A DNA stretch of 33,774 nucleotides from Planctomycetaceae bacterium (GCA_031277105.1 JAISLW010000267.1:1-33774); one strand, 5' to 3'; positions 5,343 to 33,675 are shown, numbered from the stretch's first letter. Program-made: numbers and translations. Notes: a model not told the origin generated them from the letters alone.

Positions 5343-5349
5343 CTCTTTT

Positions 5350-7548: not shown

Positions 7549-7625
7549 AAACTCTACGCTTCTAAAATCTCGTGAACGGTTACGTTTTTTTTCGGGGTTA
7601 TGGAAATAGTGGTAGTTTTTTTTGT

Positions 7626-9746: not shown

Positions 9747-9747
9747 T

Positions 9748-13952: not shown

Positions 13953-14424
13953 CTAATTCAGAATGCGAAATTCAGAATTAAAGATTTTTATTTCAAATTT
14001 AAAATAGGACGTCTCTAAAAATTCATTTGTTCAGGTAGGCGGCGTTTCGCCGAAACGCCGCATTATAGTTTATGATACCAATAAATTTTATTACTTGACA
14101 ACGCCTAAAACACGTCTGTTTTACACGTTATGAAGATTAAAATTTAATAATTGTTTTACGCGTATTACGACCGAAAAATTAAACACAGCGGCGAAACACC
14201 GCCTATCTTTTTACAAAAAATGAATTTTTAGAGATGCCCAATAATCTTTTTAATCCGCGTAATCGATGGCTCAATTTTTTTGTCCACAGACTATACAGAT
14301 TAGAAAGATTTTTTTAGGGATAAGTAGGACAGGAGGGACAAATTGGACAAATTGGAATGTTCGCAGATGTCTCGGTTAGGCGTTATTCCGAATTTCGCAT
14401 TCCGAAAGTCCGAATTAAAAAAAC
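13953..14424. repeat. G repeat interrupted by a B element
   Basis: The G copy starts AATTCAGAATGCGAAATTCA, is broken after AAAATA (14001-14006), and resumes at 14240 with AATAATCTTTTTAATCCGCG and the degenerate palindrome arm (TCCACAGACTATACAGATTA). The stretch at 14318-14360 looks like D interior (GGACAGGAGGGACAAATTGG). The outer right arm (CCGAATTTCGCATTCCGAAA) is the inverse of the left. No gene lies in this gap. Confidence 0.75.
14007..14239 (+). repeat. B element, 233 bp, with AATA target duplication
   Basis: Starts GGACGTCTCTAAAAATTCAT and ends ...TTTTTAGAGATGCCC. AATA is found on both sides (14003-14006 and 14240-14243). The uninterrupted G copy at about 5396-5410 has only one AATA, giving an empty site. 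The arms include self-complementary GGCGGCGTTTCGCCGAAACG. Confidence 0.9.
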
Positions 14425-15366
14425 TTATCCCTTAACTTCTATCTCATCGATCAATTCATTTGGAAATTCTGGGAAGGGCGATTTTTCTTTTTTGCTGTCT
14501 TCGGCATGAATAGAAACAATAACGATGTTGTGCAGATTTGCGAAATCTACAACGTCTTGCCGGTCAATGAAAATTGTTTTGTCCGCTTCAATCGCTAACG
14601 CTCTTGCGCCGGATTCATACATAGTCTTTAACGTCAACAATCCAAAAGTTGGCACGTCAAACCGCATATCTTGCTGCGGCTTCGCAACTTTTATAACCGT
14701 AAAACCCTTTGCCTGACTAAGCGACCCTGCACGTCTAATACACTCGTCCGTGCCTTCTATCGCCTCAACCGCCAATATCGCTTGATTACGAACACAAACA
14801 CTTTGACCTATATCAAGACGACCCATCTCTTTTGCTATCGCCCAACCAAAACAAATATCCTTCCACTCCGCCGCATTCGGTCCACGACGTGTCAACTTCT
14901 GACGTTTCACAAGCAATTCAGGTATAAGATCCGTACCCGGTAAAAGGTTAATATTATTTTCAGCAAACGCTTCAACTACCGCCGTTAAAAGCGTATCATC
15001 GCGCAAATCTTTCTTACGCGTTACAAACATCGGAAGAAATTTACGTATCGTATAAAAATCAGGTAATTGACGCCACACAAAATAAGGATGCAAAAGCAAC
15101 TTCTTATTAATTTTCCCCGCCATCGTACCGCACGTCAAACCGTGATTGTGAAAAAAACGAAAAGCCGTTTGCAACTTGCCAAGACCAAGCGGAGCAAAAA
15201 CATCACATATATCACGCAATACTACATCAGCATGATTCGATACGCCAAGACAATAAACCTCAACCCCGCGCTGCTTCAACGCCTCCGCAAGATACACAGG
15301 ATAACGCCCCCAACCCGCTATAAGACCAACACGACTCAAATCTCTACCAATTAATAACTCGACCAT
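14425..15366 (-). CDS. lpxI: UDP-2,3-diacylglucosamine pyrophosphatase LpxI
   Basis: Cleaves UDP-2,3-diacylglucosamine to lipid X and UMP in lipid A synthesis; the enzyme used by bacteria that lack LpxH. The 313 residues match the LpxI (DUF1009) family. N-terminal GLIAGWGRYP at 14-23 begins the first domain. The conserved C-terminal blocks EAIEGTDECIRRAG (201-214) and KVAKPQQDMRFDVPTFGL (226-243) contain the acidic metal-binding residues. The ATG at 15364-15366 has no strong ribosome site. It is separate from lpxD (9 kb away) and from alternative glmU (477 bp downstream, split by repeats), so the pathway genes are dispersed. Confidence 0.95.
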   Translation of the reverse strand: MVELLIGRDLSRVGLIAGWGRYPVYLAEALKQRGVEVYCLGVSNHADVVLRDICDVFAPLGLGKLQTAFRFFHNHGLTCGTMAGKINKKLLLHPYFVWRQLPDFYTIRKFLPMFVTRKKDLRDDTLLTAVVEAFAENNINLLPGTDLIPELLVKRQKLTRRGPNAAEWKDICFGWAIAKEMGRLDIGQSVCVRNQAILAVEAIEGTDECIRRAGSLSQAKGFTVIKVAKPQQDMRFDVPTFGLLTLKTMYESGARALAIEADKTIFIDRQDVVDFANLHNIVIVSIHAEDSKKEKSPFPEFPNELIDEIEVKG

Positions 15367-15408
15367 TTTTCAAAACAAAAATTCAAAACAAACTCACAAT
15401 GAAATTTC

Positions 15409-15428
15409 ATAACCGTTCACGAAATTTT
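15409..15428 (-). repeat. D terminus, reverse orientation
   Basis: ATAACCGTTCACGAAATTTT, 11 bp from the kinase stop codon. Unlike the other gene-end D termini, it points the opposite way. The 73-bp gap to lpxI has nothing else recognisable. Confidence 0.5.
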
Positions 15429-15439
15429 CTATTGCGACG

Positions 15440-17008
15440 TTATCTTGGCGGGTTTGTTGTCGGCGGCGCGTTTGGCGGGTAATATGCCGGCGGCGGCGCG
15501 TATGCAGGATTGGGCGGATAATTTGGATTTGGGTTTGGGGCGTAACCTGCGGGCGGATTGGGGTATGGATTTACCCCTACGGTATTATTGGGGTTTTGCG
15601 TAGCGGCTGTATTGTTCTGGAAATTTCTAACAGGTTTGTGATCAGACCGCATTACGATAAACACAAACAACGCCAGCGAAATTAACAACATAAACAAAAC
15701 CATCATCACGGCGCCGACGGTAACGACTAGCCACAAAGGTACATTTTGCGGCAATTGGAATGATTGCGGTTGATTTTGTTGTTGTTGATTTGGCATTTGT
15801 TGCATTTGCGGCGGCTGTTCTGCAATTGAATAATTTGTAGCCATCATTGTTTCGGGTCTCCATGTATTATAGACTTGACCGATAGCGGAGCTATTACTCG
15901 GTTTTATAATTTGTCCTTGCGGCGGGTTTGCAGGATCGGCAGCCAAGACGCCTGGGAAAGTTGAAGTTCCCTTTTTTTGGTGCGGTCTTTTTATCATTGC
16001 CTTGACTAATTCCTTACATGATTCAAACCTGTCGCTACGTTTTTTTGCCAATCCTTTAAGTATTGCGTCGTTCATATAATCAGGGATGCCGGAAATTCTT
16101 TTCGGGTGATCGCGTAGTACGCATTCGCGTAAAATTGCGACGTCGTTGCTTGTAAACGGCGGCGTTCCAGACAACATTTCGTATGCCGTTGCCGCGAATG
16201 CGTATTGGTCAGTTCTTGCGTCTTGGAAGCGTCCGCGCCATTGTTCGGGCGCCATGTAAGGTCGCGTGCCGACTACGCCCATTACGATAGTTTCGCTAAC
16301 TTCTACCATGCTTGCGCGTATCTCTTCGGCGAGTCCGAAATCAATTATCTGAATACCGTCTTCGCGACTAACCATTATGTTTTGCGGTTTAATATCGCGA
16401 TGGATAACTCTTTTTGAGTGTGCGTAGTCGAGTGTTTTTGCGATAGACCAAAGGATGTCCATTAGTTCGTTTGTTGGTACGCCGCCGTATTTTTCGATTT
16501 GTCGTTTTCGGTATTCGTCGAGCGTAACTCCGTTGACGTATTTCATCACGACGAATAAACCGTGTTCGGCGTCGTTTGACAGACTGTAAACAGGACAGAT
16601 ATGTTGGTGTTGTAATGAGTGTATGCGTTGGAAAGAATCGCGTACCATTTCAACGGCGCGTTTAACATTTTGTACTTCTTTGGGTACGAATTTAACGACG
16701 ACTTGGCGATTTGCGACTTGATCAAATGCTTTCCACGCTTCGCCCATGCCGCCGCGACCGAGTAAACGTTCTAATCTAAAACTACCGCCTAATATTGTAC
16801 CGGGTTTGTAAGAACCTTCGTCTTTAACGTCGCTATTATTGCTCTTAATATTACTCCCCGAACTCCCGTAATCGATTGTTGCGTTGACATTGGAAGACGA
16901 AGACGGTCTATTGTAATCGTCGCTTCCTACGTTATTATAATCTTGTTCGTGCCCCGAATGCATATTATTTGCAGGGATAATCGCCGGCATATCGTTTGAT
17001 TTACTCAT
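15440..17008 (-). CDS. membrane-anchored Ser/Thr protein kinase
   Basis: 522 residues from the ATG at 17006-17008; an upstream TTG frame adds five residues. Residues 1-65 are Ser/Asn-rich and disordered. The kinase domain is about 75-340: Gly loop LGRGGMGEAWKA, ATP-binding Lys106 (VVVKFVP), catalytic HRD 203-205 with IKPQN, DFG at 223-225 and GTRPYMAPEQ. All key residues are present, so it should be active. A Gln/Pro linker leads to one transmembrane helix at about 425-452. The tail beyond it, about 70 residues, is rich in Pro, Asn and Tyr with no folded domain and would be outside the cytoplasm. This is the PASTA-free, Hanks-type layout abundant in planctomycetes. Substrates are unknown; the neighbours (lpxI, pyrF) give no clue. 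Confidence 0.93.
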   Translation of the reverse strand: MSKSNDMPAIIPANNMHSGHEQDYNNVGSDDYNRPSSSSNVNATIDYGSSGSNIKSNNSDVKDEGSYKPGTILGGSFRLERLLGRGGMGEAWKAFDQVANRQVVVKFVPKEVQNVKRAVEMVRDSFQRIHSLQHQHICPVYSLSNDAEHGLFVVMKYVNGVTLDEYRKRQIEKYGGVPTNELMDILWSIAKTLDYAHSKRVIHRDIKPQNIMVSREDGIQIIDFGLAEEIRASMVEVSETIVMGVVGTRPYMAPEQWRGRFQDARTDQYAFAATAYEMLSGTPPFTSNDVAILRECVLRDHPKRISGIPDYMNDAILKGLAKKRSDRFESCKELVKAMIKRPHQKKGTSTFPGVLAADPANPPQGQIIKPSNSSAIGQVYNTWRPETMMATNYSIAEQPPQMQQMPNQQQQNQPQSFQLPQNVPLWLVVTVGAVMMVLFMLLISLALFVFIVMRSDHKPVRNFQNNTAATQNPNNTVGVNPYPNPPAGYAPNPNPNYPPNPAYAPPPAYYPPNAPPTTNPPR

Positions 17009-17043
17009 GATGTTTTTTGACAAAAAAATTTTTGAAACTGGGT

Positions 17044-17181
17044 TTATACGTATCGTACTTGAATTTCATCGATGTATATTATTCGTACTTAAAATTCAGT
17101 GATTTAAAAGCGTCTAAGTTTGCCTTCTGATAAATAAATAGTCAGATTGCGGTAAGCGCAGGTTTTATCGTGAACAGTTTA
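17044..17181 (-). repeat. degenerate stacked A elements
   Basis: A truncated A terminus (TATCGTACTTGAATTTCATC, 17051-17070) is followed at once by a second, diverged A copy (about 17075-17181) that has lost its hairpin core. It sits between pyrF and the kinase. Confidence 0.6.
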
Positions 17182-17201
17182 ACAATTTTGATTATTTCGT
17201 A

Positions 17202-18131
17202 CTAGGTTAATTTTCCTGCGTTAGTTTTATTTTTTAGTTGTTCGATCATATTTTTTGTTGCTTCTTCGGTTGCGGTTTCCCATTTTTGTTCTCCGTATTT
17301 TGATTTGTAGGGTTCGTTTTTGTAAGCGTAAAGTAATCCTCTTGAATTATTTATAATTGCGCCGAGTCCGTTTTTATCGAATACCGGCGCGATGTCTTCG
17401 GCGTTTGCGCCTTGGCTTCCGTAACCTGGCACGAGTAACCAAGCCGATTTTAATATTTCACGTAATTCTGACAATTCTTTTGACCAAGTTGCGCCGACGA
17501 CTGCGCCGACGTCGCCGTATTGCGTGTTATTGTCGTTATTTTTTAGTGTTGAAACCGCTAATTCTTGAACGTAGCGGGCGACGTGGTTGTAAATTGTTTT
17601 TCGGTTTGATTTCAAGTCTTGAAACATTTTGCCGCCTGGATTTGACGTTTTAACTAATATAAAAATTCCGGCGTTTTGTTCTGTTGCCGTTTTGACGAAT
17701 GGTTCAATTGAGTCGGCGCCCATGTATGGTGAAACTGTCATTGCATCGGCGCCCCATGCGGAGTTTTTGCCTAAAATCCCAGACGCATATAATTCTGCTG
17801 TTGAGCCGATGTCGCCGCGTTTGCCGTCAAAAATTGTTAATAATCCTTTTTCCGAAGCATATTTGATTACATTGTCAAGTGCAATCATTCCGTAAGAGCC
17901 GTATCGCTCAAAACATGCCGCTTGCAATTTAACTGCCGGAACAAGCGGAGCAACAACGTCGATAACGTTGCAACAAAATCGTTTCAATACCGAAGGGGCT
18001 TTCCATATATCATTCGCATCGATACCAGAACGCATAGATTCAGGTATAAATTCAAACTTCGGATCAAGTCCGACAAGTACGGGAGTACATTTTGAGCAAA
18101 CCGCTTCGGCGAGTAATTGGGAAAAAGTCAT
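17202..18131 (-). CDS. pyrF: orotidine 5'-phosphate decarboxylase
   Basis: Decarboxylates OMP to UMP, the last step of pyrimidine synthesis; cytoplasmic TIM barrel. The 309 residues and motif order fit subfamily 2 of the family (the longer 270-310-residue form). The catalytic block FDGKRGDIG is at 101-109 with D102, K104 and D107. VGLDPKFEFIP near the start binds the base and ribose, and VPGYGSQGA with NNSRGLLYAY forms the phosphate-binding C-terminal part. The start ATG at 18129-18131 agrees with homologues (MTFSQLLAEAV). No operon partner is present. Confidence 0.97.
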   Translation of the reverse strand: MTFSQLLAEAVCSKCTPVLVGLDPKFEFIPESMRSGIDANDIWKAPSVLKRFCCNVIDVVAPLVPAVKLQAACFERYGSYGMIALDNVIKYASEKGLLTIFDGKRGDIGSTAELYASGILGKNSAWGADAMTVSPYMGADSIEPFVKTATEQNAGIFILVKTSNPGGKMFQDLKSNRKTIYNHVARYVQELAVSTLKNNDNNTQYGDVGAVVGATWSKELSELREILKSAWLLVPGYGSQGANAEDIAPVFDKNGLGAIINNSRGLLYAYKNEPYKSKYGEQKWETATEEATKNMIEQLKNKTNAGKLT

Positions 18132-18597
18132 TAGCGTTATATTTTATGCAAAAATAAAATTATGAATATAAGGGGGACAAAATACGTATAATCTTGTTAG
18201 TAATCAATCATGTTAGCAATTCGTTTCTTCTGGCGTGATCTCGCATGTAGTGTAATTCCGTTATATGGGTTGTGCGTGAGTTTTATCTGCTCGTACTTGA
18301 AGTTCAATAATGTAAAGCGTAAAAACTTGCCGTTAATAGCTAGGCAGGCGAAGGTAAACGCAAATTGAAGCGAGAACAGTTTGAATATTGCTCAAATCGC
18401 AACAAGACCGCTAATTATACTACAAATAAATTAAAAAAGCACGATAAAAATATAATTACAGATAAAAATTTATTAGAAAATCGTCAATCGTTAATGTATT
18501 CTAAACAGTTCGCACGTGATTTTTCGTTTACCGCCGCCAGCTTAACTATAAGCGTCTTATTTTTTAGAAAAGTTGACTCGGGTTAGTAATTATAACT
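18132..18597. other. intergenic stretch upstream of pyrF
   Basis: Apart from the A copy at 18284-18383, nothing is recognisable. The piece 18481-18590 (including AAAGTTGACTC, also seen at about 29928) may be old repeat debris. No supported gene. Confidence 0.4.
18284..18383 (-). repeat. A element, diverged
   Basis: Ends TATCTGCTCGTACTTGAAGT and GCGAGAACAGTTTG, with a partly decayed core (CTTGCCG...TAGGCAGGCG). Confidence 0.7.
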
Positions 18598-18749
18598 GGG
18601 CATCTCTAAAAATTCATTTATCCAGGTAGGCGGCGTTTCGCCGAAACGCCGCATTAGAGTTTATAATACCAATAAATTTTATTACTTTACAACGTCTAAA
18701 ATATGTCTATTTTACACGTTACGAAGTATTAAAATTTAATAATTGTTTT
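18598..18749 (+). repeat. B element, right end lost
   Basis: Left two thirds of B (GGGCATCTCTAAAAATTCAT, then the GGCGGCGTTTCGCCGAAACG stem). It stops abruptly at 18749, where D sequence begins. Confidence 0.8.
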
Positions 18750-18910
18750 AGGGGATAGTGTAGGGGTTAGTGTTTTTAATTAAGAGTTATGAATTTAGAA
18801 AAATAATTTTTGTTATAAAAAAATTGTCCCACTTGTCCCTCCTGTCCCACTTGTCCCTCAAAAAATTGCCAGAACGTAATTGAACAAACAAATTTCCGTG
18901 AACGATTACA
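18749..18910 (+). repeat. D element, left arm lost
   Basis: D interior (AGGGGATAGTGTAGGGG, then the repeated CCCACTTGTCCCTCCTGTCC block) ending CCGTGAACGATTAC at 18897-18910. Its left arm was lost where it meets B. The next 50 bp contain a decayed E fragment (GGATCGCTGTCGTTCTGACC). Confidence 0.7.
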
Positions 18911-19047
18911 ATAGAGAATGCGAATAGAGAATTAGGAAATAAAGTTTTTGAATTTGGATCGCTGTCGTTCTGACCGTCGGCAACCGAAAATGTTGCGTTC
19001 CTGCGGACAATTTTTTTGTAACCAAAATTGTCATTGTTGCGTATAAG

Positions 19048-19878
19048 TTACGGCGTAACGATTTCAAATTCATACAGGACGTTCCAATTTTTTCCTGTAA
19101 TATAGATGCGTTTTTTTTGTCTGTCAAACGCAATTCCATTTAATACGCATTGGCGTGCGCCCCATGTTAAATTTTGCTCTTTACGGTGTTCCGGCGGCAC
19201 AAAAGGGGCAAATTCAATTCTACCGATAACCTCGCCCGTTTCAGGATTGATTCTCGCAACTTGAGTACTTTGCCATATATTTGCCCAAATTTCGCCGTTG
19301 ACGTACTCAAGCTCATTCAAATCGCGCAGATGAAAAGTTTTTTTAGTTTTTGCGTCAATATCCTTGACAAAAATTTTACGCACGGAGTTAAAAGTATTCG
19401 GGTCGATGAAATTTAATTGATCGCTTCCGTCGCTCATAATTAAATGTTTGCCGTCATACGTTAATCCCCATCCTTCGCCTTTATACTTGAATTGACCAAT
19501 CAGTGCAAACGTGTTTTTGTCATACACGAAACAATATCCTTCACGCCATGTTAATTGATAAATTTTATTACCGATAATATGAGCGCCTTCTGCAAAATAT
19601 TTATCCGGCAACTTCACTTGACGTATAATTTTACCAGTTTTAATTTCAACTTGCCGCAACGTCGATGATTTATATTCGCCCGTACTCTCGTAAAGAAAAC
19701 CGTTGTCATATACTAAACCTTGCGTAAAGGCGCCGCTATCGTGAATATATCGCCCTACTTCCTTGATCTCAAGACGCAATTTCTCATGCGTTTGAGCAAA
19801 ACTTAAACACGATAAAAATATAAACAAAAACGCTAAACAAATAAAATTTATAATTTTTTTTACGCTTACTATTATCAT
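19048..19878 (-). CDS. exported glutaminyl-peptide cyclotransferase (plant/bacterial type)
   Basis: Converts N-terminal glutamine of peptides to pyroglutamate. The family is a five-bladed beta propeller. Visible family blocks are FTQGLVYDNGFLYESTGEY, YFAEGAHIIGNKIYQLTW, EGWGLTYDGKHLIMSDGS, LNELEYVNGEIWANIWQS, and LNGIAFD with ITGKNW. The start is set at the ATG at 19876-19878, because it begins a clean signal peptide (MIIVSVKKIINFICLAFLF... SFA|Q). The longer open frame to 19971 runs into mobile element F and is not real. The mature protein of about 250 residues fits the family, exported to periplasm or outside. Confidence 0.92.
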   Translation of the reverse strand: MIIVSVKKIINFICLAFLFIFLSCLSFAQTHEKLRLEIKEVGRYIHDSGAFTQGLVYDNGFLYESTGEYKSSTLRQVEIKTGKIIRQVKLPDKYFAEGAHIIGNKIYQLTWREGYCFVYDKNTFALIGQFKYKGEGWGLTYDGKHLIMSDGSDQLNFIDPNTFNSVRKIFVKDIDAKTKKTFHLRDLNELEYVNGEIWANIWQSTQVARINPETGEVIGRIEFAPFVPPEHRKEQNLTWGARQCVLNGIAFDRQKKRIYITGKNWNVLYEFEIVTP

Positions 19879-19922
19879 AAAATTAAGAAATTTAATAAAA
19901 TAAATTGTTAAGAAATTCTTTA

Positions 19923-20110
19923 GGGAACTTCTAAAAACCACAAATTTATTTTTATTAACCACTGAGGACACAGAGGAAATTTTTAATTGGAATCAAAAAA
20001 TTATTTAATATTATAATTGACTTTTTTATCTAAAATTTTTTTAAAAATTATTCTCTGTGAACTCTGTGTTATCGGCGATTAAATAAAAAACTGGTTTTTA
20101 GAAGGTTACC
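19923..20110. repeat. F element, about 188 bp
   Basis: Inverted ends GGGAACTTCTAAAAACCA (left) and TGGTTTTTAGAAGGTTACC (right). Subterminal CCACTGAGGACACAGAG and CTCTGTGAACTCTGTG are a further inverted pair. It lies upstream of the glutaminyl cyclase and explains the false N-terminal extension of that gene. A half copy is at about 29665-29718. Confidence 0.75.
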
Positions 20111-20115
20111 TTTAT

Positions 20116-20330
20116 GGGCGTCTCTAAAAATTCATTTGTCTAGCCGCATTACGGTTTACGACATCTATAAATTTTATTACTTTATAATATCTAAAATATA
20201 TCTATTTTTGTACGTTATGAATTATTGAAATTTAATAATTATTTTATGCGTATTGCGGCCCAAAAAATAAACACAGCGGCGAAACGCCGCCTACCTTTTT
20301 ACAAAAAAATGAATTTTTAGAGATGTCTCT
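20116..20330 (+). repeat. B element, about 215 bp
   Basis: Left end GGGCGTCTCTAAAAATTCAT. The right end has drifted (GAATTTTTAGAGATGTCTCT). TTAT on both sides (20112-20115, 20331-20334) may be its target duplication; the right TTAT contains the stop codon of the next gene. Confidence 0.75.
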
Positions 20331-21890
20331 TTATGCTTTTGGCGGCGGTTCTTGTTTTTTTCCGGTGATAATTTCTGTTAAATCATCGCTGCATTTTTGT
20401 AAGGATTCGCGTATGATGGTGAAGTTTACTTTGAATTGTCCGCGTGTTGTCGTTCTTGGCGTTGTTGTCGTTCTTGGTGTTGTTCCTGTTCCTGTTGTTG
20501 TTTCTGTTTTGCCTTTGTCCAAGATGATAATTAGCTCGGCGAGCGCTTTTGTAGCCTTGCTTAATTTTTCATAATTTGGGTCTTCTGCTTTTAGTACGGC
20601 AATTACTCCGGTTGAAGTCGCACCTGAAATTTTGCTGCCGCGCATTCCGTTGATGATATAATAAAGCGTATTTGATTTAATGCGTTGCACGATAGTTATG
20701 ATTTCTTTTTGCGCTATCGGCGGCAATTGTGCAAACGGCGGCTCGACAACCGTATCGCCTGTTGCGCCGGCGCCGTCGGTTCCGCTCATTATGGGTCCGC
20801 TCATTCCGTCTCTTCCTATTCCGCTCATTTCGGGTCTTCTTCCAATAATTCCTGCTGGATTGATTTGTCCGTTTTGTCCTGCCGCCGGTAGCGCTTTGTT
20901 TATAGTCGCATCAATTTTTTCAATTTCTGAATCGCAATATTTTTTTGCTAATGCGATTAACAAATTACTTATTTGTGCGAAGTCAGCCGGTTTAACTTTA
21001 TCTACTGCCGATTGTAAATCGAGTTCGCCCATAAGACGCGCCGCTCTACAACGCATATCAAAAGATTCCAATTCCGACCTCAACGTATCCTTTACAACAG
21101 TTAGGACGCTTTGATCGAAGTTTTTCAGCGCCGCCAGTCCGTCAAACGCCCGCATCCGCAACCAATCTAATTTTTCACGCTCGTCTGCGTCTTGATCTGC
21201 TACGGGTCTGTTTGAGGTAATGATTTGGATAAAAATTGCGGGCGCTTGTTTTTTCTTAAAATCGTCATTTGCCGTTCCTGCTTGTGCGTGGCGGACGATA
21301 CCGATTAGAGCGCCGGCGCGAATATATTCCGGCGTTAATTTATTATTGTGTACGGCTATCAATTGTTTCAACGCTTCGTCGTAAAATACGGGCGGTTCGG
21401 TTGCTGTTGCGTCTTTTGTTGTTAGTTGACCGACGGCTAGAATTGCGTTGTATCTTGTCGCCGGATTAAGCGATTTATCGTTTGTCATTTTGGTCAACGT
21501 TTCAAGAGATTTAGTGAGAAAAAAAGTCCGCGCATTGCCTGTAGCGTCGCGTAAATCGCGCAATAAATCGCGCATGTAATTCTGTTGAATGAAACCCAAG
21601 TTGCCTTCAATCGTCCAACGCGCAAAATAAAATTTGTCAAAATATGCGTTCCATTCGCTGCGATTTGCCGCCGTTATTGTGCCTTGTTTCATTGCCGCCG
21701 TTATTTCGTCCTTCTTTGATGACAACGAATTATCAAACGCCCATGACTTGTAATTTTGCCCAAAAACTAAGCCCGCATCAAACAGACTTGTTATCGTAAC
21801 AAAAAACATCAGACAACAAAAACTTAAACGTAACAATAAATCAAACCTGCTTTCACGTTTATTATTCGTGAAAATTTTAAGATTATACAT
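20331..21890 (-). CDS. exported helical-repeat protein of unknown function
   Basis: 519 residues. The start is well supported by GGAG at 21898-21901 before the ATG. Residues about 18-45 form a signal peptide or anchor (LLLRLSFCCLMFFV... VFGQ). About 90-330 contains helix pairs of HEAT-like character (RYNAILAVGQL, RAGALIGIVRH, RMRAFDGLAALKN, RCRAARLMGEL). A Gly/Met-rich linker (GRDGMSGPIMSGTDG) follows, another helical part, and a Thr-rich segment (TTTGTGTTPRTTTTPRTTTR) before the last 35 residues. This suggests a periplasmic scaffold rather than an enzyme. I do not recognise the family. Confidence 0.85.
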   Translation of the reverse strand: MYNLKIFTNNKRESRFDLLLRLSFCCLMFFVTITSLFDAGLVFGQNYKSWAFDNSLSSKKDEITAAMKQGTITAANRSEWNAYFDKFYFARWTIEGNLGFIQQNYMRDLLRDLRDATGNARTFFLTKSLETLTKMTNDKSLNPATRYNAILAVGQLTTKDATATEPPVFYDEALKQLIAVHNNKLTPEYIRAGALIGIVRHAQAGTANDDFKKKQAPAIFIQIITSNRPVADQDADEREKLDWLRMRAFDGLAALKNFDQSVLTVVKDTLRSELESFDMRCRAARLMGELDLQSAVDKVKPADFAQISNLLIALAKKYCDSEIEKIDATINKALPAAGQNGQINPAGIIGRRPEMSGIGRDGMSGPIMSGTDGAGATGDTVVEPPFAQLPPIAQKEIITIVQRIKSNTLYYIINGMRGSKISGATSTGVIAVLKAEDPNYEKLSKATKALAELIIILDKGKTETTTGTGTTPRTTTTPRTTTRGQFKVNFTIIRESLQKCSDDLTEIITGKKQEPPPKA

Positions 21891-21901
21891 TTGTAATCTC
21901 C

Positions 21902-22059
21902 TTTCGTTTTCTTTTGTAAACGGTCGTTAAATTTGTTTAGCAAACTGCTAGCAACTTGTTTTGTAGGACAAAAAATCAGGCGATACGTTAAGGATAATTT
22001 TTGTTACAAAAAATCTAACCTCTATTTACTACGTCCTATTCCTACACTCTATCCTCTAA
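21902..22059 (+). other. intergenic with D interior debris
   Basis: Contains ATTTTTGTTACAAAAAATCT and CCTATTCCTACACTCTATCC typical of the D interior, but no D terminus is recognisable. Confidence 0.4.
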
Positions 22060-23262: not shown

Positions 23263-23280
23263 TTTTTTCAATTTTGGGTT

Positions 23281-23384
23281 TTAAACTGTTCACACTTGAG
23301 TTTGCGTTTACCTTCGCCTGCCTTGCCTTCGGGCGGCAGGCTTTGACGCTTTTAAATCGCTGATTTTCAAGTACGAACAGTATA
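23281..23384 (+). repeat. A element
   Basis: Full-length: TTAAACTGTTCACACTTGAG to TTTCAAGTACGAACAGTATA. It lies 18 bp upstream of the aminotransferase start and so must overlap its promoter region. Confidence 0.9.
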
Positions 23385-23399
23385 GGTTTTGGTTTTTGG

Positions 23400-23490
23400 A
23401 ATTTTTGGATTTGACGATAATTATAAATTTTGTAATTTACCGGTAGAATTATTTTTTGAAAATCGCAATTTAAAATTGCGAAAAGTATAT
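23400..23490. repeat. C-related fragment
   Basis: Ends GCGAAAAGTATA like the right end of C and contains GACGATAATTATAAATTTTG, similar to the middle of the small C at 9916-10029; heavily diverged. Confidence 0.5.
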
Positions 23491-23593
23491 TAAACTGTTC
23501 GCACTTGAGTTTGCGTTTACCTTCGCCTGCCTAGCTATCGGACGGCAGGCTTTTACGCTTTTACATCGTTGAATTTCAAGTACGAGCAGTATA
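23491..23593 (+). repeat. A element
   Basis: Full-length: AAACTGTTCGCACTTGAGTT to TTCAAGTACGAGCAGTATA, inserted at the TA that ends the C fragment. Confidence 0.9.
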
Positions 23594-23597
23594 TAAA

Positions 23598-23928
23598 TTT
23601 TGTAAACGTTCACGGAAATCTTAAGCGTTAAATTTTAGAGGTTAGGGGATGGGGAGTAATTTTTTAGAAAACTAGCCGACAGTTTTTTGTTATAAAAAAA
23701 TTTGTCAGAAGGATCGCAGGCGTCTCGCCTGTATGCGGTTGTACTCAACCGCTAGTGATTGAGTTTTTTATCTCAACCGCTTTATCTGTTGCCTTGCGGC
23801 GTCTTGCAGCCGAAACGGCTGCGTTCCTTCTCTATTTTTTGTTACAAAAAAAATTGTCTCTTCTGTCTCACTTGTCCTTCAAAAATCGCCGATACGTAAT
23901 TGTTAAAAAAATACCGTGAACTGTTACT
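23598..23928 (+). repeat. D element with E module inside
   Basis: Complete D: left end GTAAACGTTCACGGAAATC, right end CCGTGAACTGTTAC at about 23915-23928. The usual interior is present on both sides of an E module at 23707-23832. Confidence 0.8.
23707..23832. repeat. E module, multi-hairpin
   Basis: Three perfect short hairpins in a row: CAGGCG-TCT-CGCCTG (about 23718-23732), GCGGTTG-TACT-CAACCGC (about 23735-23752) and GCAGCCG-AAA-CGGCTGC (23806-23822), inside ends GAAGGATCGC and GCGTTCCTTC that pair with each other. It recurs at 24101-24230 and 25619-25743. Confidence 0.8.
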
Positions 23929-24315
23929 AAATTTTCAACAAGAGCGTAATTGTACAAACCAAAAACAACACGTCAAGTTAGACAACTTAACATTAAAGAA
24001 ATTTCCAAAAGAGTATCGCAAATGTTTCGACCGCATAAAAACAAAACCGTTGTGCAAGACTGTTGCGATCCGTCTGACGATTTTTTTTACAAAAAATTGT
24101 CAGACGGATCGCAGGCGTTGCGTCTGCATACGGTTGTACTCAACCGCCGCCAATGAGCGAGGTTTAATATCGCAGCAATCTTTTTATTTGCCTTGCGGTA
24201 AATTATAGCCGAGACGGCTGCGTTTCTTCTAATATTATGGTAATCGTTCACGGAAATTTGTTTATTGGGCATCTCTAAAAATCTATCGTTTAAATTTTCG
24301 TGAGCGGTTACGCTA
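23929..24315. repeat. E module plus B and D termini upstream of the dnaA stop
   Basis: Positions 23929-24060 show nothing recognisable. 24067-24110 forms a hairpin with about 20-bp arms (GATCCGTCTGACGATTTTTT). An E copy follows at 24101-24230, then a D end (GTAATCGTTCACGGAAATTT, about 24240), a solo B terminus (GGGCATCTCTAAAAATCTAT, 24267-24286) and another D end finishing at 24311, only 4 bp from the dnaA-type gene's stop codon. Confidence 0.7.
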
Positions 24316-25512: not shown

Positions 25513-25850
25513 CGTTTAAATTTCGGATTATAATATTTTCCAATAACCAAATTTATTTTGGATATTTTTGGGGACAAATGGGACAGGAGGGACGATTTTT
25601 TGTAACAAAAAATCATTGTCCGAAGGAACGCAGGCGTTTCGTCGGCATGCGGTTGTACTCAACCGCCGTTGTGCGAGGTTATATCTCAACAGATTTTTTG
25701 TTTACCTTGCGGCAAATTGCAGCCGAGACGGTTGCGATCTTCTCAATTTTTTGTAACAAAAAACTATTTCGCTAAATTCCTAATAAAAAAACTACACCCT
25801 ACACCCTAAAACCTAGCGATTAAATCTTTCTGAACGGTTACAAATATTTT
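25513..25850. repeat. D element with E module upstream of dnaA
   Basis: From about 25572: D interior (GGGACAAATGGGACAGGAGG, then TTTTTTGTAACAAAAAATC), an E module at 25619-25743, more D interior with CCCTACACCCTAAAACC, and the D terminus CTGAACGGTTAC ending at 25841, 9 bp from the next gene's stop. 25513-25571 holds the region upstream of dnaA; no promoter is assigned. Confidence 0.75.
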
Positions 25851-26603: not shown

Positions 26604-26635
26604 TTATGAAGGATGGAGTAAATGATAGTTTTTTT

Positions 26636-26902
26636 TGTAACCGTTCACGGAAATTTGTTTATTAAATTACGTTTTGGTAATTTTTGATGGACAAGTGGGA
26701 CATGAGCGACAAGTGAGACAAATTTTTTAAACAAAAAACTGTTCTCTATCCCTTAATCCTAACCTCTATACTGCTCGTACTTGAAATTCAGCGATTTAAA
26801 AGCCTCAAAGCCTGCCGTCCGAAAGCTAGGCAGGCGAAGGTAAACGCAAACTCAAGTACGAATAGTTTAAAACCTAGCGTTTAAAATTTTCGTGAACGGT
26901 TG
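26636..26902 (+). repeat. complete D element with nested A
   Basis: Shows the full D structure best: left terminus GTAACCGTTCACGGAAATTT (26637-26656), interior with GGGACA-type repeats, A inserted at 26767-26870, right arm ending TTTTCGTGAACGGTT about 8 bp from the GH57 stop codon. It fills the whole gap between the GH57 gene and the 25851-26603 gene. Confidence 0.85.
26767..26870 (-). repeat. A element
   Basis: Full-length copy, TATACTGCTCGTACTTGAAA to CTCAAGTACGAATAGTTTAA, inside D. Confidence 0.9.
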
Positions 26903-26910
26903 TCAGTTTT

Positions 26911-29127
26911 TTATACTAATGTTTTATTTGTGTCTTCTTGTATAAGTATTTCGGCGGCGTTTTTTAGGAATTCGTGTGCTTCTTTTTCGCGTTGTGTTGC
27001 GATGTTTGCGTCGATATTTAGGGTCATTTCGGTTTCCCATATTCCTGTTTCGTCTGGAATGATTCTCCAATGCGGTTGCAAGGCGACTGATTGGTGTACT
27101 AATTCGAATCCGGCTTCTGATTGGCTTACGGTTTCTATTGGGAAAGCGTAAAAATCGGTCGGTTTATTTACACTCAACACGACGTCTATTCCAAGCCAGT
27201 CGTCATACAATCCGATTTCTTTCCAACCGCTAACGTCCAGATTTGAGCTTAAATTTCCGATTTTATTTCCGGCGTTTACGCTGTTTCCGTTGTGAAAAAA
27301 TCTATTGTCTATGCCGCCTGGCATTCCGGCAAAATTCATCTCAACCGCAAAAAGTATCCGGTAATCTTTAGGCAAATTACTAAGCCTATACGCAATCTCA
27401 ACAACGTTGCTGCCCGAACTCAACGTTATTGCTTTATCGACTCGTATCAGCGCTCCGTAAGCGTATGCTTCGCGCGAGAGCAAAACTTGCATTCGTCCTG
27501 TTTTTTTACGTATAACTGCGTCGTATTCTTCTTGTACGAAATTTCCGTGTTGTCCGACGCGCGAATGCGAAACGGCGTCTAAATCGGTATCGTAATCATA
27601 AAATAGATCGATTAAACTTTTGCGCGGATACCAGTCGTATTGTAATCTTCGCGTTAAACCTTCTTGTTTAAAAATTATTCTTTGACCTGCGTTATCACCT
27701 CCGTTGAAGTTGTGGCGTTGCGTAATTTTTTGGTGGTATGCTTCGGGGCGGCGCGTAATTGTTGCGAGTAAGTTATGGGCGATAGATTTTATGTCAAATT
27801 CATACATCATACCTCCGAGATGCGGCGCTATGAATAAATTCATTTTATCATTCGTTAATCGCACTTCGTTTTTGCCGTCAAAATTGAAATCTGCGGTTTG
27901 TGATTCGACCCATTCGCCGGAGCGGTCTGTCGCTTTATCGATTAAATTGTCGGACTTAATTAGTTCCGAGTAAACTGTATTTCGCAAGTGAGGCAAATAG
28001 ATACCGCCAAATGCGCCGTGCCAATAACCGCAATTACATTGACTCCGGTAAAGCGATTCTTTTGCCAAATCTATATCGGCGCCGTTCCATCCTTCTTCTA
28101 TTGACTTCCGCAAGCGGGCGCTAACGCTCATCATGCGGCAATACATTTCGTCGGATTCAGGATACCGGACTTTGAAATTACGCCAGAAGCCGCCGCCTAA
28201 AAATTGGCGTATTACTTGCCATCGCTCGTCGTGTTCCATGTCGTTTTGCAACTGTTCTAATTCAATTTGTTGTTCCGGTTTTAGCGACCATTCTGTCATT
28301 TCGCGGTAACTGCCGTCGTGAATATATATCTTGCCAAGCGGCGGTATAGCGTCTATTACTTCTGTAGGCGTCGTCGTAATTATCCAATCGCTGTTTTCAG
28401 AAAGAGCGTCGAAAAATTTGTAAAGCCATTTATCTTCGTAAACATGACGATACGTTTGAGGCCAACTACCAAATTTCTCGCCGTCGTCGCCATGCACAAC
28501 TACAGGAAACTGATCCTTCTCCGACGCTTCGGCAAGATAAGAAATCACGTCTTCTATTCGCCCAAACGGAATCAAATAACGAAGCCGCTCGCTGCCAGGA
28601 AAAACGTTTATCGTCTTGCCGTCGTCTTCGGTCAGATAATGCCGCGACAATGCGTTGTCTTTAATGCCGGCATATTTCAAATGGGTATCGTCAAGTATCG
28701 TATAACGCATCCCCGCATCGACAAGATCACGCACATAACTTTGCTCCCAAACGCGTTCAGGTATCCAAAGACCGGCAATTTGCGCGCCTAAACGCTTCTT
28801 CAACCAATCAGTGTACATCTCTATTTGACCAATCCGGTCGCGAGAAGGCAACATCGAAAGTATAGGCTCAAAAAACGGACCGCCAATAATCTCTACACGA
28901 CGCTCGCGAACCAACGCCGAAAGCCGATCAAGATATTCAGGATGCGATTCCACAAGCCACTCAATAAGCGAACCGCTAGTGTGTAAGGCAAGTTTAAGCT
29001 TCGGAAAACTCTCGAATAACTCAATAAACGGCAAATAACTTTCTTGATAAGTCTGCTCAATTACATGCCCAAAATTTCCAACAGGCTGGTGATTGTGAAT
29101 CGCAAAAATAAACCGAATTGGTCTCAT
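26911..29127 (-). CDS. GH57 4-alpha-glucanotransferase / alpha-amylase
   Basis: Glycoside hydrolase family 57 enzyme acting on alpha-1,4-glucans (glycogen or maltodextrins), probably in the cytoplasm because no signal peptide is present. It has 738 residues. The (beta/alpha)7 barrel starts at FIFAIHNHQPVGNFGHV. The nucleophile is E124 in GLWIPERVWE and the acid/base D214 in VHGDDGEKFGSWP; the Thermococcus litoralis enzyme has E123 and D214. A DUF1925-like helical part follows (about 300-385, YRSQCNCGYWHGAFGGIYLP), then a DUF1926-like beta-sandwich (about 420-720, MMYEFDIKSIAHNLLATITRRPEAY). This full three-part layout favours the 4-alpha-glucanotransferase, though amylase activity is also known in the group. 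It stands alone; a tandem repeat lies upstream of its start. Confidence 0.95.
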   Translation of the reverse strand: MRPIRFIFAIHNHQPVGNFGHVIEQTYQESYLPFIELFESFPKLKLALHTSGSLIEWLVESHPEYLDRLSALVRERRVEIIGGPFFEPILSMLPSRDRIGQIEMYTDWLKKRLGAQIAGLWIPERVWEQSYVRDLVDAGMRYTILDDTHLKYAGIKDNALSRHYLTEDDGKTINVFPGSERLRYLIPFGRIEDVISYLAEASEKDQFPVVVHGDDGEKFGSWPQTYRHVYEDKWLYKFFDALSENSDWIITTTPTEVIDAIPPLGKIYIHDGSYREMTEWSLKPEQQIELEQLQNDMEHDERWQVIRQFLGGGFWRNFKVRYPESDEMYCRMMSVSARLRKSIEEGWNGADIDLAKESLYRSQCNCGYWHGAFGGIYLPHLRNTVYSELIKSDNLIDKATDRSGEWVESQTADFNFDGKNEVRLTNDKMNLFIAPHLGGMMYEFDIKSIAHNLLATITRRPEAYHQKITQRHNFNGGDNAGQRIIFKQEGLTRRLQYDWYPRKSLIDLFYDYDTDLDAVSHSRVGQHGNFVQEEYDAVIRKKTGRMQVLLSREAYAYGALIRVDKAITLSSGSNVVEIAYRLSNLPKDYRILFAVEMNFAGMPGGIDNRFFHNGNSVNAGNKIGNLSSNLDVSGWKEIGLYDDWLGIDVVLSVNKPTDFYAFPIETVSQSEAGFELVHQSVALQPHWRIIPDETGIWETEMTLNIDANIATQREKEAHEFLKNAAEILIQEDTNKTLV

Positions 29128-29187
29128 GTTTTTTTTATTTTTTTGTCAAGGGGTTTTGAAAAATATTGTAGCGTTTATTTCACAGCG

Positions 29188-29248
29188 CAACTTTTATCGT
29201 ACAAATTTTATCGCGCAATTTTTATCGCGCAATTTTTTATCGCGCAAA
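29188..29248. repeat. 13-14 bp tandem repeat upstream of the GH57 gene
   Basis: Four tandem units of TTTTATCGCGCAA (first one diverged to TTTATCGTACAAA), with a partial GCGCAAC before them at about 29184. It starts 61 bp upstream of the GH57 start codon, a suitable place for operator or iteron-like binding, but could also be plain slippage DNA. Confidence 0.7.
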
Positions 29249-29968
29249 TTATCATGTTGCGCTTTATTACACAATTTATCTCACTACAACTTATCATCGA
29301 TCCGTCATGCAATGACGGCGATAATTTTACGCAATTTTTATAACTATGGAAGTTGCCAATGATAAATAACTGTTCACGAAATTCAAGGAATTAGGAATTT
29401 ATAGGAAGAGTTTTTTTGTTACAAAAAAATTATCCCTCCTGTTCAGCCAGTCCCTCAAAAATCACAAAACGTTTTTGATTTGACTCTAATTATACAGTTC
29501 GTACTTGAATTTCAGCGATTATACAGCTAGTAATTGAATTTCATCGATTTATACAATTCGTACTTGAAATTCATTGATTTAAAAGCGTCAAAGCCTGCCG
29601 TCCGAAAGCTAAAGCTAGGCAGGCGAAAGTAAACGAAAACTCAAGTGTGAACAGTTTAAAAACTTTCTCTCTGTGTTCTCTGTGGTTAATAAAAATAAAT
29701 TTATGGTTTTAGAGATTCTCAATTGAAAAAAATTTGAAAAATACTCGTTTCAACCAAAATCGTCTTTGTAAATCGGCTGAATTTGTCAATTACATCAATT
29801 TTAACGGCAAATAATTTTACAGAATTTGTCCATTTAGAAAAAATAGGTTAAAAAAAGAAAATAGAAAAGAAACACATCCGTCTCGACTGCCTGAGGTCGG
29901 AACGACCATTTTGTCTTTCACTAGAAAAAGTTGACTCTCAACCGAGTTAAATATGGAATTAAGAACTA
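29249..29968. repeat. repeat debris: D, stacked A, half F
   Basis: A D-related stretch lies at 29368-29475 (CTGTTCACGAAATTC ... ATCCCTCCTGTTCAGCCAGTCC). Stacked A ends occupy 29491-29549, with a complete A at 29550-29660 and half an F element at about 29665-29718 (CTGTGGTTAATAAAAATAAA). 29719-29968 shows nothing convincing beyond a GGTCGGAACGACC hairpin. No gene is seen. Confidence 0.6.
29491..29660 (-). repeat. A element preceded by two stacked A termini
   Basis: Three A ends in a row, each beginning at a TA: TATACAGTTCGTACTTGAAT, TATACAGCTAGTAATTGAAT and TATACAATTCGTACTTGAAA. Only the third continues into a full element. It carries a 6-bp duplication in the core (AAAGCTAAAGCTAGG). Confidence 0.85.
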
Positions 29969-30461
29969 ATATACTTTTTGCATTTTAGATTGCGGTTTTT
30001 AAAAAATACTTTCAGCTATTGAGTATCGAATTTTTGATCAATAAATTACGTTGTATTTCGTCCCTTTTTGGGGAGCGCCTAACAGCCCGCCGCAACACGG
30101 CTTTAAACTGCTTTTACTTGACTTTACGTTTACCGCCGCCTGCCTAACTATCGGACGGCAGGCTTTGACGCTTTTACATCAACAATGAATTTTAAGTACG
30201 ATACGTATATCAATAACACGCTCTGAAATAGCAATGCAAAACAAAGTTTTTTTCGTTATAAATAAAGATCATTTGATTAAATTTATAAGTAATTAGATCC
30301 GTCATTCCATTGTCATTTCAGGACGCTCGTTATTTGATAATTGAGAACCTGCCATGTTGCGGCGGTCTGTTACGCATTGTCCTTATTAGGGCGAAATATA
30401 ATCACAATTAACGTTACAAAAAATCAAATTAAAAAACGCATTTTAATGTGTAAATAGTATA
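29969..30461. repeat. large C element with nested A
   Basis: Left end TATACTTTTTGCATTTTAGA, right end ATTTTAATGTGTAAATAGTA, forming long imperfect inverted arms: the left arm also contains AACAGCCCGCCGCAACACGG, matched by ATGTTGCGGCGGTCTGTTAC on the right, and GTCCC/AGGGC pieces. A at 30103-30209 is inserted in the middle. Without it the element is about 385 bp. No ORF inside. The right end cuts into the following reading frame. Confidence 0.7.
30103..30209 (+). repeat. A element in C
   Basis: Diverged full-length A (AAACTGCTTTTACTTGACTT to TTTTAAGTACGATACGTATA). Confidence 0.8.
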
Positions 30462-30782
30462 AACGGCAGCGAAGTCGATAAGAATAACGTCGAAGTCGCA
30501 ACGCTAGGCGGTCAATGGCGCCACGCTACAAGTTTTAACTCATGGATGAAAAAAGGAAATACCGAATACGCCTACTGGACAAACTCGCACGGCAAACGCT
30601 ATAATAAGTCAACCTTCGGCGAACCTTTCGACGGATGCTGGTTTGACGGTAAATTATTAGAGGCGTTTTTGAAAACCTCCTTTAATTACGGCAAACCTTA
30701 CGTCGTTTTGCCGGAGAGCGTATGGCGCGAGAGCAAAGGAATAACGTATGATTGGGCGATACCGTTTCCTGAAGGATTTTAA
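30462..30782 (+). pseudogene. 5'-truncated gene, unknown product
   Basis: An open frame reads from the end of element C without an early start: NGSEVDKNNVEVATLGGQWR, then HATSFNSWMKKGNTEYAYWT and on to DWAIPFPEGF, 106 codons in all. The first ATG (30546) falls inside this continuous protein-like sequence, so the original start was lost at the C boundary. Aromatic- and Gly-rich, soluble-looking, with no family I recognise. The stop TAA overlaps the ATG of the next frame, typical of an operon. It may come from a phage or other mobile element, given its neighbours; this is inferred. Confidence 0.65.
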
Positions 30783-30832
30783 TGGAATATAAATTTGACG
30801 GACTAAAACCGACAAATTACAAGGAGGTTAAA

Positions 30833-31156
30833 ATGACGGAAATTATCACGAATATCGGTTTCGCAAAAGTATTAGAACTAGGCGGCATGTTTACGCTCGC
30901 TTTTATAATTTGTATAGTTTTCTACAAATTAGGATTAAAACAAATCGCCGCAAGCGACCGCAGAACAGTCCAACTAATGGACTACATAAGCAAATCCGCA
31001 GACGACCATAAATCAGTCGTAAACCGAATAGCGCAATCATTCGAAAAAGCGCTCGATAAATGGGACAGGGACGTTGTCGAAATCAAAGACGCGATAAAAG
31101 AAACATCGCAAAACACAATCAAAACACATGAAAAAAATTATCACGACGATAATTAG
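30833..31156 (+). CDS. small one-TM coiled-coil protein (holin-like layout)
   Basis: 107 residues. The start at 30833 is chosen because a strong AAGGAGG (30821-30827) precedes it by 5 bases; an in-frame ATG at 30782 has none. Residues about 15-35 form a transmembrane segment (LGGMFTLAFIICIVFYKLGL), followed by a long charged helix (RRTVQLMDYISKSADDHKSV, ALDKWDRDVVEIKDAIKETS). A short membrane helix with a charged coiled-coil tail resembles some phage holins and phage-associated membrane proteins, but no family is certain. It overlaps the next gene by 29 bases and so is probably translated together with it. Confidence 0.75.
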   Translation: MTEIITNIGFAKVLELGGMFTLAFIICIVFYKLGLKQIAASDRRTVQLMDYISKSADDHKSVVNRIAQSFEKALDKWDRDVVEIKDAIKETSQNTIKTHEKNYHDDN

Positions 31157-32327
31157 TTTCGCAATACTAATCAATTTGACAAGTATCGCGAAAGGGCAGC
31201 CCGATTGGAGCGAATTATTATTACGGCAAGCAGAAAAAGAAGCAGAAATAATCATAAATTGGGAAACAGATCTGATAAAATGCCAAAAAAGAGCGCAAGA
31301 CAATATGCGGCGGCTTTATTACAATGGAACACTTACAAAGACTTATAGAGTTGAACGGGTAATAGACGGGGATACAATTGTTATTGGGGGCGAAAACGGG
31401 CTAGAAACTGTAAGACTTTTAGGCATTGATTGTCCTGAATTAGGCAAGGATAATAAATCAAATGAACCTTACGCGGTTGCGGCAAAAGAATTAGTTGAGA
31501 AAATACTCGCATTTCGCAAAAATAAAGTTACATTGATGCTTTATAATTACCGTCAAGACAGATACGGACGCACCGTTGCTATTGTTTTTGCTGGAGGTTA
31601 CGACATACAAAAAATACTTTCAAACGAATATACAGATACAGACGTGCTAAATTTAATGTTGCTACTTAACGGAATGGCAAAATATAAACCTGGATATAAT
31701 TTTTCAAAATTCCTAAAAGATAGAATGGACGCGTTTCAATCTATCGCAATGATGAAAAGGCTAGGTATATGGAGTAATGTAACATTACAACCGACCGCAG
31801 AAAGTATTCAAGTTATGCAAAACAATACTGTCACGCATCATGAAATTCGTAATGAATACCGTAATTTATTATTAACGGCATGCCGTAAATTTGATAAAAA
31901 TATTACTTACGTAACAGACGAACAAGTCGAAGCGTATAAGGAAATAAAAAAATCAATTAACAACAATGAGCCTATTTTTAACGCCAAAATTAAAAAATTT
32001 AAAGATAAACTAATTGAGGATAATCGCAAAACAAATTTTTATTATAGATTGAGCGATCCTGACGATCTTATTCCACCAAATGATTACGTAATAAATGATA
32101 CCGAAACACAAGACAAAGATAAAGAACTATTTGATTTCTATGTTGATTATCGCAAAAACCTCAAAAACAATTTAAAGCATCCAGAAGGTTTATCCAAAAA
32201 AACACTCGAAGGAATACAAGATGAAGTAAGAGACACTGAAAAAATTATCAAAGAAATGAAAATCCGATGGCTCTATGAGGAACAAGACGAACCTAAAGCA
32301 ATTCCAATTGCGAATGGGCGTCTCTAA
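31128..32327 (+). CDS. exported SNase-type nuclease with C-terminal extension
   Basis: 399 residues. The signal peptide is MKKIITTIISFAILINLTS..AKG. The staphylococcal-nuclease fold lies at about 70-225: YRVERVIDGDTIVI (Ca-binding Asp), VRLLGIDCPELG (catalytic Arg, then Asp and Glu), PYAVAAKELVE and RQDRYGRTVAIVF (second catalytic Arg). All known SNase active-site residues are there, so it probably cuts DNA and RNA outside the cytoplasm. About 230-399 is a charged helical extension without a known domain. The last three residues (GRL) and the stop codon come from a B element terminus, so the original C-terminus may have been longer. It is the last gene of the accessory cluster. Confidence 0.88.
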   Translation: MKKIITTIISFAILINLTSIAKGQPDWSELLLRQAEKEAEIIINWETDLIKCQKRAQDNMRRLYYNGTLTKTYRVERVIDGDTIVIGGENGLETVRLLGIDCPELGKDNKSNEPYAVAAKELVEKILAFRKNKVTLMLYNYRQDRYGRTVAIVFAGGYDIQKILSNEYTDTDVLNLMLLLNGMAKYKPGYNFSKFLKDRMDAFQSIAMMKRLGIWSNVTLQPTAESIQVMQNNTVTHHEIRNEYRNLLLTACRKFDKNITYVTDEQVEAYKEIKKSINNNEPIFNAKIKKFKDKLIEDNRKTNFYYRLSDPDDLIPPNDYVINDTETQDKDKELFDFYVDYRKNLKNNLKHPEGLSKKTLEGIQDEVRDTEKIIKEMKIRWLYEEQDEPKAIPIANGRL

Positions 32328-32335
32328 AAATTATT
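32316..32335 (+). repeat. solo B terminus at the SNase stop codon
   Basis: GGGCGTCTCTAAAAATTATT. The CTC TAA inside it gives the last codon and the stop of the nuclease gene. No other B sequence follows. Confidence 0.75.
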
Positions 32336-32600
32336 ATATTTTGGTGTTGTTTTTTGGATTTTTATTTTTTGTTATAATAAATTTGTTTTTACTATTATTT
32401 GTGTTCTTTGCTGGTACTATTTAATTTTATGCTGGTATTAGAACTTTTCAATTTCCATTTAACCATTCCTAACCCTTAGGATAATTTAATCACGAAGGCA
32501 CAATTTTCTTTTTTTGACATGAAAAATCAATTTGAGAAGTTACGAGAGATTAACGATTTTCTGTTTCGTCTTAATGAAATATGATCAATTGGGATATTTT
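32336..32600. other. AT-rich stretch, no supported gene
   Basis: Nothing recognisable except a 21-codon frame at 32519-32584 (MKNQFEKLREINDFLFRLNE) without a ribosome site, possibly a gene remnant. Confidence 0.35.
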
Positions 32601-32703
32601 TAAACTATTCGTACTTGAGTTTGCGTTTACCTTCGCCTGCCTAGTTTTCGGACGGCAGGCTTTGACGCTTTTAAATCGCTGAATTTCAAGTACGAGCAGT
32701 ATA
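32601..32703 (+). repeat. A element inserted next to an older A end
   Basis: Full-length copy AAACTATTCGTACTTGAGTT to TTCAAGTACGAGCAGTATA. It is followed at 32704-32733 by the last 30 bp of an older A (CATCAATGAATTTTAAGTAC), equal to the A end at 30177-30209. Confidence 0.9.
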
Positions 32704-33236
32704 CATCAATGAATTTTAAGTACGATACGTATATCAATAACACGCTCTGAAAGAGCAATGGAAAACAAAGGGGTATCTCTAAAAATTCATTTTTTTGTAA
32801 AAAGGTAGGCGATGTTTCGCCGCTGTGTTTATTTTTTGGGTCGCAATGGAGTTTATGCTACCAATAAATTTTAATAATTTATGAAGGCTAAAATATGTTT
32901 ATTTTAGATGCGTGAAATATCAAAATTTATTGATGGCGTAAACCGTAATGCGGCCCAAAATTAAACACTGGGCGAAACGCCGCCTACCTGAACAAATGAA
33001 TTTTTAGAGACGCCCAAAGTTTTTTTTCGTTATAAATAAAGATCATTTGATTAAATTTATAATCAATTAGATCCGTCATTCCATTGTTCTTTCAGGACGC
33101 TCGTTATTTGATAATTGCGAACCTGCCATGTTGCGGCGGTCTGTTACGCATTGACCTTATTAGGGCGAAATATAATCACAATTAACGTTACAAAAAATCA
33201 AATTAAAAAACATATTTTAAAGTGTGAATAGTATAT
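32704..33236. repeat. right half of a second C element, interrupted by B
   Basis: Matches 30180-30461 closely: TATCAATAACACGCTCTGAA, then ATCCGTCATTCCATTG, GCCATGTTGCGGCGGTCTGT and the C right end AAGTGTGAATAGTATA. The left half of C is missing. B (32771-33015) sits in it where the 30240s copy has none. Confidence 0.85.
32771..33015 (+). repeat. B element, 245 bp, with AAAG target duplication
   Basis: Ends GGGTATCTCTAAAAATTCAT and ATGAATTTTTAGAGACGCCC. AAAG lies on both sides (32767-32770, 33016-33019); the empty counterpart at 30241-30250 (ACAAAGTTTT) has one AAAG. Best-preserved full-length B copy. Confidence 0.93.
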
Positions 33237-33623: not shown

Positions 33624-33675
33624 AATGATCGCTTAAATTCAAGATGATCTTTATCGTTTTTTTGAGGAGAATTTT

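Follow-up and report, generated by a model that had tools for sequence, protein, structure and literature searches.

A short element without a gene, here called B, is a MITE with a consensus of 229 nt, and several hundred copies, most of them 200-250 bp long, are dispersed in the genome of a Planctomycetaceae bacterium. It is highly probable (about 0.9) that B, with its consensus of ~229 bp, is a non-autonomous DDE element mobilised in trans by an IS5-family transposase encoded in the same genome. The transposase would recognise the terminal GGGCRTCTCTAAAAATT of B and join the element to AT-rich AC-NNNN-GT targets cut with a 4-bp stagger, giving rise to 4-bp duplications. The interior would not be derived from the IS: it is palindromic and folds back on itself, and its arms carry REP-like stem-loops tagged with GTAG; most of the expansion is likely to be old, and copies appear to be tolerated mainly between genes.

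Copies of B and their empty sites in the window

The window, that is, the whole stretch of 33,774 nucleotides that was analysed, is contig 60 of a 5.19-Mb assembly of 553 contigs. The 20-bp end of B, GGGCGTCTCTAAAAATTCAT, matches it 16 times with at most three mismatches, against no match in 100 shuffles. Five copies have both ends (102, 213, 233, 235 and 245 bp) and none of these holds an ORF of at least 80 aa, which bears out an earlier note, made from the sequence alone, that had described B as a MITE of 102-245 bp with no ORF. The copies, their flanks and the partial copies are as follows.

119..304, minus strand: partial B in which two right ends (234-253 and 285-304) point the same way; left limit approximate
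2447..2681, plus strand: B copy of 235 bp with both ends; flanks TCTT/TATT, one mismatch in four
5349..5472, plus strand: homologue of the 14007 insertion site without B (85% identity over 126 bp)
9041..9142, plus strand: B deletion copy of 102 bp with both ends; flanks AATT/AATA, one mismatch in four
12591..12610, plus strand: solo B end (end match)
14003..14006, no strand: AATA target duplication, left
14007..14239, plus strand: B copy of 233 bp with both ends and an AATA duplication
14240..14243, no strand: AATA target duplication, right
18598..18750, plus strand: half B copy, one end and an arm; limit approximate
20116..20328, plus strand: B copy of 213 bp; right end irregular
24267..24286, plus strand: solo degenerate B end (end match)
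30180..30464, plus strand: homologue of the 32771 insertion site without B (95% identity)
32767..32770, no strand: AAAG target duplication, left
32771..33015, minus strand (taking as plus the consensus that starts with its short arm): B copy of 245 bp with both ends and an AAAG duplication
33016..33019, no strand: AAAG target duplication, right

An exact 4-bp duplication is found around only two of the five two-ended copies, 14007-14239 and 32771-33015. The latter is bordered on both sides by AAAG, and its flanks, when joined with one AAAG removed, align with 30180-30341 over 163 bp that span the junction (95% identity); AAAG occurs once there, at 30243-30246, and this empty copy thus starts upstream of position 30241, from which the earlier note had reckoned it. 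The joined flanks of the copy at 14007-14239, bordered by AATA, are 85% identical over 126 bp to the homologue at 5349-5472, with AATA once, at 5397-5400, and several additional empty copies of the interrupted repeat are present elsewhere in the genome. The homology here far exceeds the 15 bp cited before. Both filled/empty pairs on which B had been proposed to be a transposable unit with 4-bp target duplications therefore hold, and the intact repeats placed at 5396 and 30241 are indeed homologous to the split ones.

Two further repeat families lie in the window. An unrelated one of ~100-125 bp, with identities of up to 97%, occupies 1-96, 7332-7427, 7460-7555, 26781-26876, 29564-29659 and 33533-33628, and in inverted orientation 9639-9749, 23277-23387, 23486-23596, 30099-30209 and 32596-32706. 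Another copy splits the IS transposase gene at the locus L032 described below (~2284-2395), so this family is probably mobile as well. A third family of 67 bp, with members 78-85% alike and a palindromic core of its own, is seen at 23686-23752, 24081-24147 and 25600-25666; at L049 (509-730) a copy of B lies within a member of this family, of which many empty copies occur in the genome sample considered next.

Abundance, target choice and a candidate transposase

Across the genome, the 20-bp end is matched 687 + 709 times when up to three mismatches are allowed; its reversed sequence, used as a control, is matched 1 + 1 times. Flanks were read in a sample of 406 kb, made of stretches chosen among contigs with B matches, so that its densities are not those of a random sample; it holds 210 B ends and 63 close pairs, of which 61 are distinct with readable flanks. 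An exact 4-bp direct repeat borders 20 of these 61 copies, where mismatched pairing of flanks gives an expectation of 2.0 (P 6e-15). Direct repeats of 2, 3, 5, 7 and 8 bp are at the level of chance, and one of 6 bp is seen around a single copy (0.1 expected). The genome-wide 4-bp duplication foreseen by the earlier note is thus evident as a strong excess, but only about one third of the two-ended copies keep it exactly and around two thirds do not.

The duplicated bases are 89% A/T over the 20 sites and sit within a symmetrical context, AC-NNNN-GT, with C at -1 or G at +1 in 19/40 (P 7e-5) and A at -2 or T at +2 in 29/40 (P 7e-8), both above what base composition predicts; these P values are optimistic, since the pattern was noticed and tested on the same 20 sites. 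Such a symmetrical target would be what a dimer of a DDE transposase gives. The CTAG or YTAR rule of IS5 proper and MITEPsy1 fits just one of the 20 duplications (TTAA), the rest being AT-rich and of other kinds.

From the ends and their pairing, B is estimated at 400-900 copies, or ~2-4% of the assembly, which is ~86% complete. Among 40 contig ends examined, 19 have a B end no more than 250 bp away, where 4.7 would be expected, and with contig breaks so concentrated the copies are probably undercounted. The share of the assembly taken up by B, together with the breaks at its copies, helps explain why the genome is so fragmented. An exact 38-nt search of the genome contigs returned no match. 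The mean pairwise divergence of the copies is ~20%, which suggests that most of the expansion is old.

A DDE_Tnp_1 search of the genome returned two loci. At C191 (L031), an uninterrupted gene encodes a transposase of 351 aa (P0001) that scores 242.6 bits against the NCBIfam IS5-family model NF033581 (cut-off 140; E 5e-72), with Pfam DDE_Tnp_1 and DUF772 also above their cut-offs; a search by sequence for a relative of solved structure found none. About 100 bp beyond its stop codon lies GGGCGTCTCTAAAAATT. This is the only full-length transposase gene, and as the contig ends before the second terminal repeat, the IS around it was not seen complete. The lost end is visible in L081, where a deletion has left 903 bp of the IS with both of its ends, and in the window at 32316. 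B and the IS ends in L031 and L081 agree in all of the terminal 17 bp; beyond them, no convincing match between the IS and B was found. An origin of the B interior as a deletion product of the IS was accordingly rejected, as only the ends match, though L081 shows that the IS does have a deletion derivative.

In C326 (L032), the transposase gene of another copy of the IS is itself split by a copy of B with ACTA on each side, while in L031 the gene is uninterrupted and ACTA occurs once. This nested insertion constitutes a third filled/empty pair, inside the gene of the candidate driver. The IS copy in L032, of 1,661 bp, is the sole two-ended full-length one in the genome and has no 4-bp duplication (ATAC/AATC). 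The window holds a remnant of the same IS:

32316..32602, plus strand: 5' end of the IS, with terminal repeat, leader and transposase codons 2-37 (one stop); 94.6-94.7% identical to L031 and L081

This remnant is interrupted after codon 37 by another repeat and lies 168 bp from the copy of B at 32771. The earlier statement that the driving transposase is absent from the window stands for a whole gene, but not for this fragment. Beside it, the last codons of the gene at 31128-32327, whose product is thermonuclease-like by eye, enter the IS terminal repeat at 32316, and the end of the protein has possibly been altered by the IS insertion.

Relatives of P0001 in Clostridiales, Flavobacteriales, Spirochaetota, Nitrospinota and Cytophagales are flanked by similar ends (such as GGTCACCTCTAAAAA, GGGCACCTCTAAAAA and GGGAACCTCTAAAAA). 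Five of ten two-ended IS copies with readable flanks in other genomes have a 4-bp duplication: two clostridial genomes account for TTAT and TAAA, and a single Flavobacteriales MAG for TGAA, ATAA and ATAT. Further, next to such an IS in a rumen clostridium (L114) lies a MITE of 161 bp that has ends of this kind and is flanked by a TTAT duplication. The IS5-like enzyme that the earlier note had offered as a guess is well supported by these relatives, and by the finding in the same genome of an ORF-bearing IS, that of P0001, with the 17-bp ends of B.

Closer to home, the B end occurs in 13 of the 21 genomes of the genus, with this genome by far the highest. One genus-mate (G012) has B-like pieces, a short arm and a long arm, at L054 ~1501-1545 and L063 1501-1533, and B may therefore predate the split of these species. 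The named genus-mates are Planctomycetaceae MAGs with isolate names that we take to be those of a termite-gut series, from which we infer a termite-gut source for this genome too; the host belongs to an uncultured planctomycete lineage, probably of that habitat.

The palindromic interior and the alternatives

The 229-nt consensus of B folds end to end as a hairpin. Stripped of the ends, the interior is still far more stable than its shuffles, with z of -11.8 and -6.0 in two copies from the window. Larger MITEs with the same type of end and unrelated interiors also fold, in G004 (z -9.1), G008 (-8.9), one copy in G019 (-6.5) and the clostridium (-5.1), as does a 64-bp MITE in G018 (-4.0); a second G019 copy, three MITEs of 88-100 bp and the bodies of two IS gave no excess of folding. 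In MAFFT-aligned copies of B the RNAalifold consensus fold collapses, as the blocks of the interior vary, or change orientation, from copy to copy. It is conceivable, if doubtful, that P0001-type transposases favour palindromic passengers, unrelated interiors having turned into long hairpins between ends of one kind in this species, several genus-mates and a rumen clostridium, and those of B having GTAG REP stem-loops incorporated as well. If so, the success of a MITE would be set by its foldback structure and not by its interior sequence.

A REP-form stem-loop with a GTAG tag, an 11-bp stem and a 1-nt loop is present in each arm of B, and the same form with different stems is seen outside B in genus-mates. 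Palindromic repeats of ~130-200 bp that start with AGGTAGGCG and have no IS5-type ends are also present in genus-mates (G005 L064, G014 L061, G015 L057 and G017 L056) and resemble GTAG REP pairs.

These stem-loops raise the idea that B is a REP element mobilised by a RAYT through HUH chemistry, its terminal repeats being incidental. The genome does have two Y1_Tnp (RAYT-type) genes (G000:C168:8187-8522 and G000:C488:15743-16084), and 14 of the 21 genus genomes have such genes. However, single-strand transposition by HUH enzymes gives no 4-bp duplications, and these are present at the outer ends of B. Moreover, 67 of the 72 GTAG hairpin motifs in this genome lie near a B end, almost always at one of a few fixed distances inside it, so that here stem-loops and ends travel as one unit, and the B hairpin was found at none of ten Y1_Tnp loci scanned with a strict motif, one of this genome's two included. 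Mobilisation by a RAYT was rejected on this last count and is very improbable. It is decidedly unlikely that a different transposase with similar ends, either lost or belonging to another IS of the genome, drives B with the IS5-family gene as a bystander. Most copies are old enough for the original driver to be gone, and further IS may be unseen in the missing part of the assembly; yet the 17-bp identity of B with the IS, and the recurrence of this end type and duplication with the P0001 group in other phyla, argue against it, and a lost driver would most likely itself have been a close relative of P0001. That the whole pattern reflects chance or misassembly is hardly credible. The many contigs and the clustering of their ends at B could invite such a reading, but breaks are the expected effect of a high-copy repeat, the shuffles yielded nothing, the reversed patterns gave 2 matches against 1,396, and the excess of duplications is essentially confined to 4 bp.

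A role for the hairpin itself, with B selected as a regulatory or transcript-end RNA and mobility secondary, is unlikely. The end-to-end fold would suit it, and so would the placement of the copies, since in none of 61 are both flanks inside predicted ORFs in a sample that is 65% predicted coding, a method that misses insertions leaving short gene pieces, as in L032. Such intergenic placement is, however, also what selection against disrupted genes would leave. Half-swapped copies match or exceed natural ones in folding (-96.3 vs -91.5), so that no co-evolution of the arms is seen; compensatory double changes in the arms are in no clear excess (14 vs 9.4 expected), and G-U pairs do not outnumber A-C pairs (135 vs 161, on the tested strand), giving no signal of an RNA read from one strand. 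A nearest-neighbour result that had seemed to show the hairpin being preserved (mean z -3.9, 31/31) was rejected as flawed, because neighbour energy differences average about zero by symmetry and random mutations only weaken a fold. Overall, a host function of B is unsupported, and the simplest reading is that of a parasite filtered by selection against gene disruption.

B among known mobile elements

The B family and its IS constitute a MITE and its candidate parent for which the ends, the choice of target, the parent's transposase and hundreds of insertion sites are at hand together, and the repeated appearance of palindromic interiors between ends of one type in several species poses a testable question on what transposases require of MITEs. 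A full-text literature search of partial coverage found no report of the family in planctomycetes.

The closest counterpart is MITEPsy1 with ISPsy2 in Pseudomonas syringae, for which transposition of the MITE has been seen in vivo (PMC3189936). Like B, MITEPsy1 is short and non-coding, its ends match an IS5-family IS of the same genome (18-nt terminal repeats), and it makes a 4-nt duplication (PMC3189936). It is 100 nt long, has six copies in that strain and targets CTAG or YTAA (PMC3189936), whereas B has ~229 nt, hundreds of copies, the AC-NNNN-GT context and a palindromic interior. IS of the NF033581 group share with B the GGGNNYCTCTAAAAA-type terminal repeats and AT-rich 4-bp duplications, but B lacks the transposase gene and only the terminal 17 bp are common to the two. 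The arms of B resemble GTAG REP dimers, in which GTAG is followed by an 11-bp stem-loop in two inverted units, and which in the GTAG-15 family of Anabaena variabilis lie within longer palindromes (PMC3733652). In B, by contrast, the two units are enclosed by DDE-type ends with 4-bp duplications, and no RAYT gene was found alongside. Correia elements and the MITEs of Ca. Thiomargarita nelsonii are likewise abundant bacterial MITEs with long hairpins, but they have TATA ends or 10-bp direct repeats, and no IS5 parent is named for them (PMC4853749). IS5-family MITEs with 4-bp duplications, REP dimers within palindromes and abundant hairpin MITEs are thus all known already, and B is a new and very abundant example.
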